NCBI GenBank assembly: GCA_003021685.1
Contig: PXRO01000018.1
Location: 1 to 44,078 of the forward strand
Source: Halobacteriales archaeon QS_4_62_28
GTDB taxonomy: Archaea > Halobacteriota > Halobacteria > Halobacteriales > Haloarculaceae
Length of the DNA stretch: 44,078 bases
Direction: 5' to 3'
Positions 646 to 41,983 of this stretch are shown piece by piece (within the stretch, counting starts at the first letter, position 1; each line of letters opens with the position of its first letter). Under the pieces are notes generated by a model. The model had not been told where the DNA came from. It searched no databases and saw only the letters and a program-made list of their open reading frames with translations. The translations under genes and the position numbers were made by a program.

Positions 646-727
646 TATACCGGTGGACGTACGCACTGATACATTCAGCCTGAACCGTGATGGCTGAGAA
701 GTATCAAACGGTACGTCCACCGGTATA
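646..727. repeat. 82 bp hairpin element A (17 bp perfect terminal inverted repeats)
   Basis: TATACCGGTGGACGTAC at 646-662 is the exact reverse complement of 711-727. Inside is a second, imperfect foldback (GATACATTCAGCC at 668-680 against 692-705). The whole element could fold into one long stem. It is homologous to element B at 25881-25964, sharing nearly the same inner sequence (…CAGCC…CGTGA.GGCTGAGAAGTATCAAACG). It lies between the IS left end and the small membrane protein gene. The right arm ends in GTATATG, which could serve as a TATA box for that gene. Confidence 0.85.
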
Positions 728-7409: not shown

Positions 7410-7495
7410 ACGCTCACTTGACGCGGCGCTCCTAAGTCGCTTCCTGTTGGAACAAACGTCGCCAGCACTGCCCGTCTGTCCGATTACCCGCTCTC

Positions 7496-7575
7496 ATACT
7501 GTCGGACGGAAGTCCGTGACGAATTTCGCCACCCCGGGGTGGCGAGAATCTTCAGATAGGTACGTCCGACAGTAT
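7496..7575. repeat. 80 bp hairpin element C with inner 20 bp palindrome
   Basis: ATACTGTCGGACG (7496-7508) is exactly complementary to 7563-7575. In the centre, 7526-7545 is a perfect 20 bp palindrome (TCGCCACCCC and its complement). The element ends inside the TGA stop codon of the uracil-DNA glycosylase gene (7575-7577, minus strand). The right arm (TACGTCCGACAGTAT) matches the right arm of element A at 12 of 15 positions. It could terminate that gene or be a dispersed repeat. Confidence 0.8.
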
Positions 7576-8162
7576 CAGAAATCGCCGAGTCGCCGCTGGC
7601 CGCTCCCCTCGTCGGTGTACTCGGCCGCCGCTACGATAGCGTCGACGAAAGTGTCTTTCTGGCCGGGATCGTACAGCGTCGCCGCAGGATGGACACAGAC
7701 CAGCAGTTGCCGGCGCTGGCCGGCGACATCCGGATCGAACACGTCGCCGGCCTCGCCTGTGACGCCCACGTCTCGCCCCAGCAGGTGCTGGGCGGGGACT
7801 TTGCCCAGCGTGACGATCAGTTCGGGATCGACCAGATCGATCTCGCGTTCGAGATACGGCCGACAGTTGTCCAGTTCCTCGCTGCGCGGGTCGCGGTTGT
7901 CCGGCGGCCGACAGCGCACACAGTTGGTGATCCGCACGTCACCCCGGTCCAGTCCGGCCGCCCGAAGCGCCTCGTCGAGTACGTCGCCGCTCCGGCCGAC
8001 AAAGGGGTCACCCTGCTTGTCTTCCTGTGCGCCGGGGGCCTCGCCGACGAACAGCAGATCTGCGTCGGCCGGTCCAGTGCCGTTGACGATCCGCGACCGG
8101 GACTCGACCAGTTCCTCGCAACGCTCACACGCCGTGACATCGGTCCCGTCCATCTGCTTCAT
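7575..8162 (-). CDS. udg: Uracil-DNA glycosylase, family 4 (iron-sulfur)
   Basis: 195 residues. Family 4 UDGs remove uracil from DNA after cytosine deamination and carry a 4Fe-4S cluster. Motif A is FVGEAPGAQED (family 4/5 type, with the E-A-P-G core), followed by DPFVGRSGDVLD. The conserved His motif is VCVHPAATL. Cluster cysteines are the C-E-R-C pair near residue 12 and two cysteines in NCVRCRPP/NCRPY near 80-99. A second in-frame ATG three codons in (MDGTDVTACERC) is an equally good start. The stop codon overlaps the end of hairpin element C. Confidence 0.92.
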   Translation of the reverse strand: MKQMDGTDVTACERCEELVESRSRIVNGTGPADADLLFVGEAPGAQEDKQGDPFVGRSGDVLDEALRAAGLDRGDVRITNCVRCRPPDNRDPRSEELDNCRPYLEREIDLVDPELIVTLGKVPAQHLLGRDVGVTGEAGDVFDPDVAGQRRQLLVCVHPAATLYDPGQKDTFVDAIVAAAEYTDEGSGQRRLGDF

Positions 8163-23901: not shown

Positions 23902-25875
23902 ATGACACAGGGCGGGAATGGGGCGGGCAGCGAATCCGTTGGCGACCGGACAGTGCCACAACTATTCGAAGCGAGCACAGGACAGCACGCAGATCGGCCT
24001 GCACAGTCCTACAAGGGCGGCGTGTACCACCGCTCGCTGGCGGGTGTCGCGTTCGAAGGGGCACCTGAGGGCGAATTCGTCGATCTCACGTACGGTGAGA
24101 TGCGGTCGATCGTTCGGCGACTGGCCACTGGGTTCCGGGAACTGGACATCAGTCTCGGGGACCGCGCCGGTATCTTCGCAGACACGCGGATGGAGTGGGC
24201 ACAGTGTGACTTCGCGCTGCTCTCCGCGGGTGCCGTCGTCACGACAGTGTATGAAAGTTCCTCGCCGGACCAGATCAGGCACCTGCTCGACGACCCTGAC
24301 GCGACGGCCGTCGTCGTCGAGAACGCCAACCTGCTGGACCGGGTGCTGTCCGTCGAGGACGACATCCCCGTCGAGACCTACATCGTGATGGACGCCGTCG
24401 ACTGCGACCGCGAAGACGTGTACACGCTCGCGGATGTCTACGAAATGGGTGACGAGGAGTACAGCGAGGGAAAATTCAGGACGTACCTGGCCGAACGAGA
24501 TCCCGAGGACCTCGCCAGTCTGGTGTACACCTCCGGGACCACCGGGCAACCGAAGGGCGTTCGACTCACCCACCGGAACTTCGTCGCCAACGTCGAACAG
24601 GTCGAGAGCCAGTACGGTCCGAGTGCAGACCTGCCATCGGGGACGCCACGCATCGACGAGACGACCCGAACCGTCTCGTATCTCCCGCTCGCGCACGTCT
24701 TCGAGCGCCAGTCCGGCCACTTCTCCATCTTCGAGGTCGGCGGGTGTGTGGCCTACGCCGAGAGCGTCGATACCCTCAAAGAGGACTTCAAGACGGTCGA
24801 ACCCACCGCAGCGACCAGCGTCCCGCGAGTGTACGAGAAGATTTACGACGCAGTCCGTGCGGAGGCCGAATCCTCGACCATCGGCGAGCGCGTGTTCCCG
24901 TGGGCGGTCCAGGTTGGCCGGCGGTACCACCGCGAGGAGCGCCCCGGGTTCGCACTACAGACGAAATACGCCGTCGCGGACCGCCTCGTGTTCTCGAACG
25001 TCAGGGACGCCCTGGGTGGCAACATCGAGATGCTGGTCAGTGGCGGCGGGACCCTCTCGAAGCAGCTGGCCGAACTGTACCACGGGATGGGGTTGCCCAT
25101 CTTCGAAGGGTACGGACTGACCGAGGCGTCGCCGGTCGTCACGACGAACCCGCTTGCCGAACCCAAGACCGGGACGATCGGGACGCCCCATCCGGGCATC
25201 GATATCGAGATAGACACGAAAACGCTCCCCGAAGAACAGATCGGCGCGACGCTTGGCACGACCGGCGAACTGCTCATCAGGGGCCCGAACGTCACTGATG
25301 GCTACTGGAAGTTGCCCGAGGCGACCGAGGCGGCATTTACCGACGACGGCTACTTCAAGACCGGCGACATCGTGACGCGACGGCCGGACGACTACCTCGT
25401 CTTCCGGGAGCGCTCCAAGCAACTGCTCGTCCTCTCGACGGGCAAGAACGTCGCGCCACAGCGTGTCGAGGGCGAACTCGAAGAATCGCCGATCATCGAT
25501 CAGGCGATGATCGTCGGCGACGGCCGGAAGTTCGTCAGCGCGATCCTGGTTCTCGATACGGGCGAAATCGTCGACTACGCCGCAAAACAGGGGGTTTCGG
25601 TACCGACCGAGCCGGCAGAGATGCAGACCGACGAGTCGGTTCGGGACCTCGTCGCCTCGGAGAGAGACCGTGCCAACGAATCGCTCGAGTCTCACGAATC
25701 GGTGTCGGCGTTTCGCCTGACGACAGAGCCATTCACCGAAGTCAACGGTCTGTTGACCCCGACGATGAAGAAGAAACGCCCAGCGATCACAGCGGCGTAC
25801 CGGGACGAGATCGAGTCGATGTACGACGACACCGAGTTCACGCGGACGGAACAGGTCACTGTCGACGGGGAGTAG
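23902..25875 (+). CDS. Long-chain acyl-CoA ligase (AMP-forming)
   Basis: 657 residues. The adenylate-forming enzyme signature is LVYTSGTTGQPKGVRLTHRN, with later motifs GYGLTEASPVV, GYWKLPEATEAAFTDDGYFKTGDIV and KNVAPQRVEGELEESPIIDQAMIVGDGRKFVSA. The length, and the sequence ETTRTVSYLPLAHVFERQ, match the FadD15/FAA1-like long-chain branch, which activates fatty acids with ATP and CoA. The C-terminal KLTxEPFTxxNGLLTPTMKKKRP-type tail is visible (RLTTEPFTEVNGLLTPTMKKKRP). The thiolase at 28778 could act in the same oxidation pathway, but the genes are not in one operon. Confidence 0.93.
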   Translation: MTQGGNGAGSESVGDRTVPQLFEASTGQHADRPAQSYKGGVYHRSLAGVAFEGAPEGEFVDLTYGEMRSIVRRLATGFRELDISLGDRAGIFADTRMEWAQCDFALLSAGAVVTTVYESSSPDQIRHLLDDPDATAVVVENANLLDRVLSVEDDIPVETYIVMDAVDCDREDVYTLADVYEMGDEEYSEGKFRTYLAERDPEDLASLVYTSGTTGQPKGVRLTHRNFVANVEQVESQYGPSADLPSGTPRIDETTRTVSYLPLAHVFERQSGHFSIFEVGGCVAYAESVDTLKEDFKTVEPTAATSVPRVYEKIYDAVRAEAESSTIGERVFPWAVQVGRRYHREERPGFALQTKYAVADRLVFSNVRDALGGNIEMLVSGGGTLSKQLAELYHGMGLPIFEGYGLTEASPVVTTNPLAEPKTGTIGTPHPGIDIEIDTKTLPEEQIGATLGTTGELLIRGPNVTDGYWKLPEATEAAFTDDGYFKTGDIVTRRPDDYLVFRERSKQLLVLSTGKNVAPQRVEGELEESPIIDQAMIVGDGRKFVSAILVLDTGEIVDYAAKQGVSVPTEPAEMQTDESVRDLVASERDRANESLESHESVSAFRLTTEPFTEVNGLLTPTMKKKRPAITAAYRDEIESMYDDTEFTRTEQVTVDGE

Positions 25876-25880
25876 CCTGT

Positions 25881-25964
25881 TATACCGGTGGACGTAAGCA
25901 ATGATACATTCAGCCCGGGGACCGTGACGGCTGAGAAGTATCAAACGTTCCGTCCACCGGTATA
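25881..25964. repeat. 84 bp hairpin element B (homologue of element A)
   Basis: TATACCGGTGGACG (25881-25894) is exactly complementary to 25951-25964. The inner part matches element A almost throughout (TGATACATTCAGCC, CCGTGA.GGCTGAGAAG, TATCAAACG). It begins 6 bp after the acyl-CoA ligase stop and ends 30 bp before the TATA box of the antiporter gene, a good place for a terminator. Confidence 0.85.
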
Positions 25965-40261: not shown

Positions 40262-41983
40262 TTACGTCGGGAGCGTGAGATCCTCGCCGGTCAGCAGCCG
40301 GACCGAGGTCGGCTGTTTGACGAACTCGTGCGCCTCGGTGCCGACGATCTGCCCGACACCGCGCTGGGCGGCCACGTCGAGGAGGCGCTGGGTCACGGTC
40401 CCGTCGATCGCGAGCACGTGCGGGACCGGCTCGGCGTCCACAACGGCGTCGAAGGCGTCGTCGGCGTCACACGCCTCGATCGTCTCGAAGGACTCGGAGA
40501 GCAGCCTCGCCTGACCGCTCCCCGCGCCGATGACTGCCTCGACGTGAGCCTGCAACGTCGTGGGCTGGCCGCCAGCATCGTTGTCGCCTGGTGGCGCGTC
40601 ACCCTGTTCGGCAGCGTCCGGGGAGGCCTCACTCGCCCCCGCAGCCTCTGAGGAGGCCTCACTCGCCCCCGCAGCGTCCGGGGAGGCCTCACTCGCCCCC
40701 GCAGCGTCCGAGGAGGTGGCACTCGGTTCCGCAGCCTTCGAGGAGGGTTCATCTGCATTCCCAGTCTCCGACTGGTCCGCACCGTCCGTCTCGGCGTCCA
40801 CGGAGTCCCCAGCCGTGGGCTCTCCGGGACTCGCCGGCTCCTCGGTCGTCGGGTCGGCCGCTGTGGCACCACCGTCTGCGGTCCGCGGCCCACCGGCCGC
40901 GGAGTCGTCCTCCTGCTCGTCGACCGGGCGGTCGGCAGGGTGTTCGGGCTCGGGGGCGTCCTCGTCTGACTGAGTGGGGCTCACTCCGTCAGGTCCGGAC
41001 TCCGCCTCGCCGTCAGATGTGAGCCCGTCGGCGGGCTCGTCGCCACCGGCTGCCCGGGACTGGTCGGTCACTGCTCCGGAATCGGTTCGCGCGGCGTCGC
41101 CAGCCCTCTCGACGACGTCCTCGACCTGCTGGCGGGTGGCGGCATCGCTCGACGGTGCGAACGCGTCCCGCGGCGAGTCGGCCTCCATCGCCTGTTCGTA
41201 GGGGACTTTCTTCCGGAGTGCGGACATGATCGCCGAGCGGTCCAGGTCCTCCACGCAGTTGCCGGCGGGCGCGAACGCGACGTAGTCGACGCTCCCGATC
41301 TGGGTGAGTTCCTCGAGGATGAGGTCGCCGCCCCGGTCGCCGTCGAGCAGCACCGTCGTCGTGCGCTCCGTGGTGAGTCGCGCCACCGTCTCCGGGATGT
41401 CCGTCCCCTCGACCGCGACGGCGTTTTTGACGCCGAAGCGCAGCAGCCGGCGGACGTCCGCGCGACCCTCGACGACGATGATGGCGTCGCTGTCGGCCAC
41501 TCGCGGGCCCGCAGGCACGCCCTCGAACTCGGTGATGTCCTCGACGCGGGACTGCTGGCGCACCGCCTCGACGAGGCTCTCGCTGGTCATCGTCGAGTCC
41601 TCGAGGTCGGTCAGCAGGTCTGTCGCCCTGTCGACAAGTTCGCGACGCTTCGCTGCGCGTGCGTCCTCGATCGCCGTCACTGTGCAGTCTGCTCGACACG
41701 GGCCGACGCGTTCGATCGTTTCGAGGGCGGCAGCCAGGACCGCCGTCTGTACCCGGTCGAGGCCGCTCCCGATGGTGATCGTCCCGAACGAGCGGCCGTC
41801 CTCCGACTCGATGTCGACGTCTATCCGGCCGATCTTCGAGGCTTCCTGCAGGCCGCGCAGGTCGAGTTCGTCGCCGAGCAGCCCCTCGGTCTGCCCGAAA
41901 ATGGCGCCGACGACGTCACTCCGCTCGACCACCCCGCTCGTGCGGATCTCCGCGTGAATGAGGTACTTCGCTGAATGTAGCAT
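40262..41983 (-). CDS. dnaG: DnaG-type primase (archaeal) with repeat-containing linker
   Basis: 573 residues. Archaeal DnaG start MLHSAKYLIHAEIRTSGVVERSDVVGAIFGQTEGLLGDELDLRGLQ. The Toprim domain (about 165-250) has the catalytic Glu in IIVVEGRADVRRLLRFG and the acidic D-G-D in TVLLDGDRGGDLIL. Residues about 300-475 are a low-complexity acidic linker including decapeptide repeats (GASEASPDAA type). The C-terminus (LQAHVEAVIGAGSGQARLLSESFETIEACDADDAFDAVV … LLTGEDLTLPT) is the conserved archaeal DnaG end. In archaea DnaG is known as an exosome subunit and may also make primers. Its tail ends near the convergent DUF92 gene; a response regulator gene lies upstream. Confidence 0.95.
   Translation of the reverse strand: MLHSAKYLIHAEIRTSGVVERSDVVGAIFGQTEGLLGDELDLRGLQEASKIGRIDVDIESEDGRSFGTITIGSGLDRVQTAVLAAALETIERVGPCRADCTVTAIEDARAAKRRELVDRATDLLTDLEDSTMTSESLVEAVRQQSRVEDITEFEGVPAGPRVADSDAIIVVEGRADVRRLLRFGVKNAVAVEGTDIPETVARLTTERTTTVLLDGDRGGDLILEELTQIGSVDYVAFAPAGNCVEDLDRSAIMSALRKKVPYEQAMEADSPRDAFAPSSDAATRQQVEDVVERAGDAARTDSGAVTDQSRAAGGDEPADGLTSDGEAESGPDGVSPTQSDEDAPEPEHPADRPVDEQEDDSAAGGPRTADGGATAADPTTEEPASPGEPTAGDSVDAETDGADQSETGNADEPSSKAAEPSATSSDAAGASEASPDAAGASEASSEAAGASEASPDAAEQGDAPPGDNDAGGQPTTLQAHVEAVIGAGSGQARLLSESFETIEACDADDAFDAVVDAEPVPHVLAIDGTVTQRLLDVAAQRGVGQIVGTEAHEFVKQPTSVRLLTGEDLTLPT
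40623..40742 (-). repeat. 30 bp minisatellite inside dnaG
   Basis: Three near-identical 30-base units start at 40623, 40653 and 40683 (GAGGCCTCACTCGCCCCCGC plus ten more bases), followed by a diverged fourth (40713-40742) and a trace of a fifth. Each unit encodes ten residues of the DnaG linker, so copy number can change without breaking the frame. Confidence 0.9.

Follow-up and report, generated by a model that had tools for sequence, protein, structure and literature searches.

A dispersed family of short hairpin repeats of probable mobile origin in a member of the Halobacteriales

Two short hairpins in a 44,078-nt contig of Halobacteriales archaeon QS_4_62_28 (the whole of this stretch is called the window below) belong to a dispersed family of repeats, here family 1, that is very probably a miniature inverted-repeat transposable element (MITE), that is, a non-autonomous unit moved by an enzyme encoded elsewhere. 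The initial annotation had offered a MITE-like nature as one of several readings, and copy number, inverted repeats, 2-bp target duplications and nested insertions all support it. By its features family 1 is filed as a MITE with a putative parent, and it is a new family within a known class.

The window copies and the extent of the family

The two copies and their parts are as follows.

646-727, plus strand: family-1 copy 1 (78 bp) with its flanking TA/TA (fold, blastn, covariance model, paired ends)
646-662, plus strand: left outer arm of copy 1, the TA of the duplication plus the terminal inverted repeat (fold, paired-end listing)
667-706, plus strand: inner foldback of copy 1, with stems 667-672/701-706 and 674-680/692-698 (fold)
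694-698, plus strand: inner-stem CTGAG of copy 1, where superfamily-A elements entered five other family-1 copies; empty here
711-727, plus strand: right outer arm of copy 1, the terminal inverted repeat plus TA (fold, paired-end listing)
25881-25964, plus strand: family-1 copy 2 (80 bp) with its flanking TA/TA (fold, paired ends)
25881-25894, plus strand: left outer arm of copy 2, perfect over 14 bp (fold)
25931-25935, plus strand: inner-stem CTGAG of copy 2; empty here
25951-25964, plus strand: right outer arm of copy 2 (fold)

Both hairpins lie where they had been annotated, and they are 78 and 80 bp long, or 82 and 84 bp when the flanking TA/TA is counted. The perfect outer arms (17 bp in copy 1, 646-662/711-727; 14 bp in copy 2, 25881-25894/25951-25964) and the homology of the two copies (89% identity across the whole query) were likewise borne out. 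Each is a nested palindrome, in which the outer arm is followed by a 6-bp stem TGATAC/GTATCA and then by an inner stem TTCAGCC/GGCTGAG with a short loop. As plus-strand RNA the copies fold with z-scores of -9.2 (copy 1) and -6.7 (copy 2), and none of 200 shuffled sequences was equally stable; folded as DNA they give -8.1 and -7.5. Copy 1 stops 12 nt short of an ATG at 740, upstream of a start as had been noted, and the 140-aa frame that begins there has no Pfam match. Copy 2 sits just after a stop codon, also as described: it lies between an AMP-binding enzyme gene, whose reading frame ends at 25875, 5 nt upstream, and a Na/H exchanger gene, and its sequence recurs with 100% identity on another contig (C5:36710-36793). 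No Rfam family reached its gathering score in the window. Two other repeats of the window may be recorded here: a 40-nt direct repeat upstream of copy 1 (354-393 and 427-466, 88% alike and 73 bp apart), and tandem 30-bp repeats at 40596-40775 (five 60-nt register copies at a spacing of 30) within a long minus-strand reading frame.

The proposal that the pair belongs to a dispersed family was confirmed in the organism's own draft genome (2.64 Mb in 57 contigs, 89.7% complete), where the lack of further copies that would have told against it did not occur. A blastn search with copy 1 gave at least 40 places (the best 40 of 75 candidates), which, copy 1 itself aside, share 83-92% identity with it. 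From 38 of them (L038 and L039, whose right ends are damaged, were left out) we built a covariance model, and its 110 two-strand rows merged into 62 distinct places, spread over 31 contigs, at E<=0.1; 49 of the 62 have E<=1.7e-11, and a few of the weakest could be false matches or members of superfamily A (below). Chance similarity as the origin of the likeness between the hairpins is ruled out by these blastn and covariance-model copy numbers.

Outside this genome the family is scarce. None of 58 relatives, among them six from the same genus, had it, and a search of the order at E<=1e-4 found it in two of 392 genomes; that search scored the best two candidates per genome, and diverged relatives could escape it. 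The two are its own genome and G281, a genome of the same family, which holds two copies, 76% and 74% identical, with TA on both sides, ends TATACCGGT and a TTGATA/TATCAA-like stem; their interior folds but differs in sequence. Such a patchy distribution counts in favor of a mobile element. Plasmids gave no match to family 1 or to the G281 relative. Viral contigs gave none in one scan and 71 single matches in another; the paired-end partners of these 71 all have 3-4 mismatches, and we read them as chance. The only match of a scan of contigs, an exact one to the family-1 core in a Chloroploca contig, was also taken as chance. The end strings of the element occurred in no haloarchaeal paper of the literature that we searched.

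Ends, target duplications and nested insertions

A listing of paired ends had 57 rows, of which 8 spurious pairs and 2 hybrids were dropped to leave 47 two-ended copies. With the boundaries taken as TACCGG..CCGGTA, so that the ends are TACCGGTGGACGTA and its complement, 46 of the 47 are 78-81 bp long, and the remaining one (L085) is an 88-bp mosaic; there is no room for a gene. The terminal inverted repeats are conserved across 38 aligned copies. Identical 2-bp flanks are present in 35 of the 47 copies, 32 of them TA/TA and one each GA/GA, TC/TC and AA/AA; the last three are the only copies without TA on either side, and when right flanks were permuted, three matching non-TA pairs were reached in 58 of 100,000 trials. 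The next base outward matches in 13 of 47. In the other 12 copies the flanks are unequal, with TA on one side and other bases opposite. In the TATA at the element ends, the outer half is the duplicated target. Of the features by which MITEs are recognized, short length and lack of a transposase, inverted repeats, target duplication and many dispersed copies are found here.

Duplication of a TA target is reminiscent of IS630-type enzymes; the three non-TA duplications are a misfit for a strict TA transposase. Correia, ERIC and RUP elements are short, mostly intergenic, imperfect palindromes that also duplicate a TA target, and RUP has been linked to IS630. Family 1 resembles the general description of these elements in its target (32 of 47 copies with TA/TA) and differs from them in its three non-TA duplications and in its host, theirs being bacterial.

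The window also holds a member of a second group with the same nested build and a different sequence, which we call superfamily A (TACTG..CAGTA).

7494-7496, plus strand: TCA, left copy of the superfamily-A 3-bp duplication
7497-7574, plus strand: superfamily-A element TACTGTCGGAC..GTCCGACAGTA, 78 bp
7575-7577, plus strand: TCA, right copy of the duplication, which is the minus-strand TGA stop of frame 7575-8162

A palindrome that contains this core spans 7492-7579. In our reading the insertion struck the stop codon of a uracil-DNA glycosylase gene (frame 7575-8162), and the duplication preserved the stop. Superfamily A has members in many haloarchaea: relatives were present in 14 of 40 genomes searched, its own included, and among 72,556 plasmid records 13 held one, all of them haloarchaeal and from five genera; phages gave no match. 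For the exact ends TACTGTCGGAC and TACTGCCGGCT the counts in its own genome are 38+43 and 35+22 (controls, 1+0 and 2+1). A script found 91 elements in all, and 86 remained after 5 were dropped. Identical 3-bp flanks are present in 59 of the 86, all of them TNA (25 TGA, 24 TCA, 5 TTA and 5 TAA), against a mean of 21.4 and a maximum of 37 when the flanks were permuted; in its own genome the figure is 35 of the 56 elements that lie on the fetched loci, which are not the genome total. The flanks are unequal in 27 of the 86, and these, like the unequal flanks of family 1, are read as later mutation. TNA duplication is reminiscent of some IS5-type groups. A version of the TACTGTCGGAC element 108-109 bp long and with a different interior occurs in another genome (G023, L159-L162), a 2.4-Mb draft in which the 11-mer end of that element is present 59+54 times.

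The two groups have inserted into each other. Five superfamily-A elements (L076, L121, L127, L128 and L131) lie at one and the same base step of the family-1 inner stem, GGC-TGA-GA, and TGA (TCA on the other strand) stands on both sides of all five. Once one copy of the duplication is taken out and the flanks are joined, they match the family-1 site at scores of 17-23; no other element of the 56 scores above 9. These nested insertions serve as related empty sites carrying the duplication. The fraction, 5 of 56, may be biased upward, since some loci were fetched for their family-1 pieces, and given how often CTGAG occurs in the window it is moderately unlikely (P 0.016, with 60 sites assumed), so that part of the preference is accounted for by the motif. 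In the other direction, family 1 has entered a superfamily-A element in L007: it lies at that element's terminal TA, and the element's TCA/TCA is now on the outside. Hybrids also exist: L084 has one end from each group, L123 has a family-1 body with TACTG-like ends, and L085, the mosaic above, has a superfamily-A piece inside family 1.

Two further loci showed unusual surroundings. At L071 399-797 (G000 C12) the family-1 loop holds about 300 bp of other sequence, which includes a palindrome of its own and a stretch of N. At L039 the family-1 copy adjoins a superfamily-A element, and CRISPR-like repeats (GTCACCCCAACGGTGGTGTTTCAAG) start about 40 bp past the copy, from 2122.

Counts against the MITE reading are that partial searches found no parent and that relatives gave no clean empty site, along with the three non-TA duplications and the unequal flanks. 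In a parent transposon the ends would be TACCGGTGGAC or TACTGYCGG and the duplications TA or TNA, and no autonomous element with family-1 or superfamily-A ends was present in 30 PF01609 loci, 3 plasmid records and 152 viral loci. The PF01609 loci (30 of 62 matches, from six genomes) were examined for inverted ends that start with TA and lie 600-2600 bp apart. The only TACTG-type end pair near a PF01609 gene (L195, in G009) proved to be an insertion sequence inside a superfamily-A element, and hence not a parent; this 1.4-kb DDE_Tnp_1 insertion sequence (1071-2473, encoding 458 aa) has a 10-bp duplication, CTTTACGAAC, and further copies elsewhere in G009. Among TACTGYCGG pairs less than 3 kb apart in the three plasmid records, the sole candidate turned out to be two separate small elements that flank ordinary genes. 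The 81 viral loci with a 15-mer end had partners only at 2-4 mismatches, and the best of these pairs (L343, 2 mismatches) has no duplication and, by eye, no interior like that of the hairpin families. In a comparison of the Halomicrobium LC1Hm and H. mukohataei plasmids no clean empty site was found, only a rearranged gap and one partly deleted element, and both superfamily-A elements examined were common to the two plasmids.

Folding, gene context and competing explanations

Changes on both sides of a base pair that keep it paired could point to selection on folding, and we counted them in three alignments. Such counts are raised by the relatedness of the copies, and in the outer arms two-sided changes would arise in any case if a single enzyme reads both ends. 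Among the family-1 copies of its own genome 94.9% of cells pair and 14 cells are two-sided (shuffled mean, 6.3), and the number of pairs with two-sided changes, 3 versus 2.9 in shuffles, is not above expectation. An alignment of older copies together with those of G281 (A3, 19 hand-chosen rows) has 14 two-sided pairs versus 7.0 shuffled, among them five of the six inner-stem pairs. The superfamily-A alignment (A2, 48 rows chosen from 83) has 16 versus 11.2, with two-sided changes in six of nine inner pairs, and its middle stem is only 70.5% paired. The signal dropped in all three sets when partner columns were slid. The inner-stem changes suggest selection on folding, weakly so among the copies of its own genome.

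Gene context was assigned with a home-made gene finder, which placed 35 of 40 copies: 14 in convergent gaps, 17 in tandem gaps and 4 in divergent gaps, where 4.4, 12.5 and 18.1 would be expected from intergenic length. By gene-pair counts the divergent deficit has a Fisher P of 0.013 and the convergent excess a P of 0.076. Orientation in tandem gaps (9 same, 4 opposite) is not decisive. The suggestion that copy 1 supplies a TATA box found little support, given that the outer TA is duplicated target and that 4 of 35 copies lie between divergent genes. This avoidance of promoters fits purifying selection, and it is no proof of a terminator.

If the MITE reading is right, the non-coding unit of about 80 bp would be recognized at its ends, TACCGGTGGACGTA and complement, by a transposase encoded elsewhere (both the enzyme and its chemistry are deduced), and would be excised or copied and then inserted at a 2-bp target, in most cases TA, that is duplicated in the process. 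The nested hairpin inside the ends may be kept by selection, at least in the long term, as the two-sided changes suggest. Landing sites that survive would mostly be other than promoter gaps and often the 3' ends of genes, where a palindrome may do little harm, and the co-resident, TNA-duplicating superfamily A, present in many haloarchaea, would have taken the family-1 inner stem as a target.

The MITEs of Haloquadratum and other prokaryotes share inverted repeats, target duplication, lack of a transposase and multiple copies with family 1, as two accounts describe them (PMC3119063, PMC10969869), and the latter names Sulfolobus, Halobacterium, Haloquadratum and a few others as archaea with MITEs. 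What sets family 1 apart from them is that no parent transposon was found in our partial searches and that its inner stem carries two-sided changes.

A possible, if unlikely, alternative is that family 1 belongs with the SMR-A small mobile repeats of Haloquadratum (HqIRS42, HqIRS43, HqIRS55), which have inverted repeats and aim at the palindromes of other elements. Compared by description, the Haloquadratum small mobile repeats are the nearest haloarchaeal class that we found. SMR-A elements, as described in PMC3119063, are about 110 bp long with up to 54 copies, have inverted repeats unrelated to known transposons and enter the palindromes of other elements, of the PATE/IS605 kind, and the authors call the mode of movement of small mobile repeats enigmatic. 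Family 1 is likewise short, non-coding, haloarchaeal and present in tens of copies with inverted repeats; superfamily A enters the family-1 palindrome at one site, much as a palindrome preference would have it, and has a 108-109 bp version in G023. Against this stand the 2-bp and 3-bp duplications seen here, whereas that account describes small mobile repeats as lacking target duplication (PMC3119063). By description the two also differ in length, about 80 versus about 110 bp.

It is rather doubtful, within the MITE reading, that the inner hairpin is itself part of mobility, such that a haloarchaeal transposase, or a host protein along with it, reads the folded element, as a cruciform or a single strand, and yet 2-3 bp duplications are made. 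Just as tentative is the corollary that the same recognition of structure draws other families into the inner stem.

We think it improbable that the repeats are RNA or DNA hairpins used by the host (as terminators, protectors of mRNA 3' ends or chromosome-organizing sites) and spread or kept for that function. The very stable folds, the scarcity of copies in divergent gaps and the two-sided changes in A3 and A2 would all be consistent with such a role. The duplicated target bases, the nested insertions and the near absence from the sampled order tell against it, and neither the mixed orientation in tandem gaps nor the unremarkable count of two-sided pairs in the organism's own genome speaks for a host function.

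Least probable is movement as folded single-stranded DNA by IS200/IS605 (TnpA), as for REP/REPIN or PATE sequences: hairpin form, dispersal and the abundance of IS605-related PATEs in Haloquadratum make it worth naming, but family 1 and superfamily A, palindromic and haloarchaeal as PATEs are, have both terminal inverted repeats and duplications, while PATEs are described as without terminal inverted repeats and IS605-type elements as making no duplications (PMC3119063). The REP-like reading of the initial annotation is not supported, as REP/REPIN sequences are given, in PMC3733652, as 20-40 bp palindromes with a GTAG or CGTC tag that are moved by RAYT, and the element here is about 80 bp with TACC..GGTA ends and duplications.

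Implications for haloarchaeal mobile repeats

Transposition that reads hairpins and transposition that makes duplications are normally separate, and the idea that the folded element is read would, if true, join the two. The defined ends, targets and nested insertions described here can be used in seeking the transposases behind haloarchaeal small mobile repeats. Finally, a hairpin that resembles a TATA box or a terminator in such genomes may be a transposon end.
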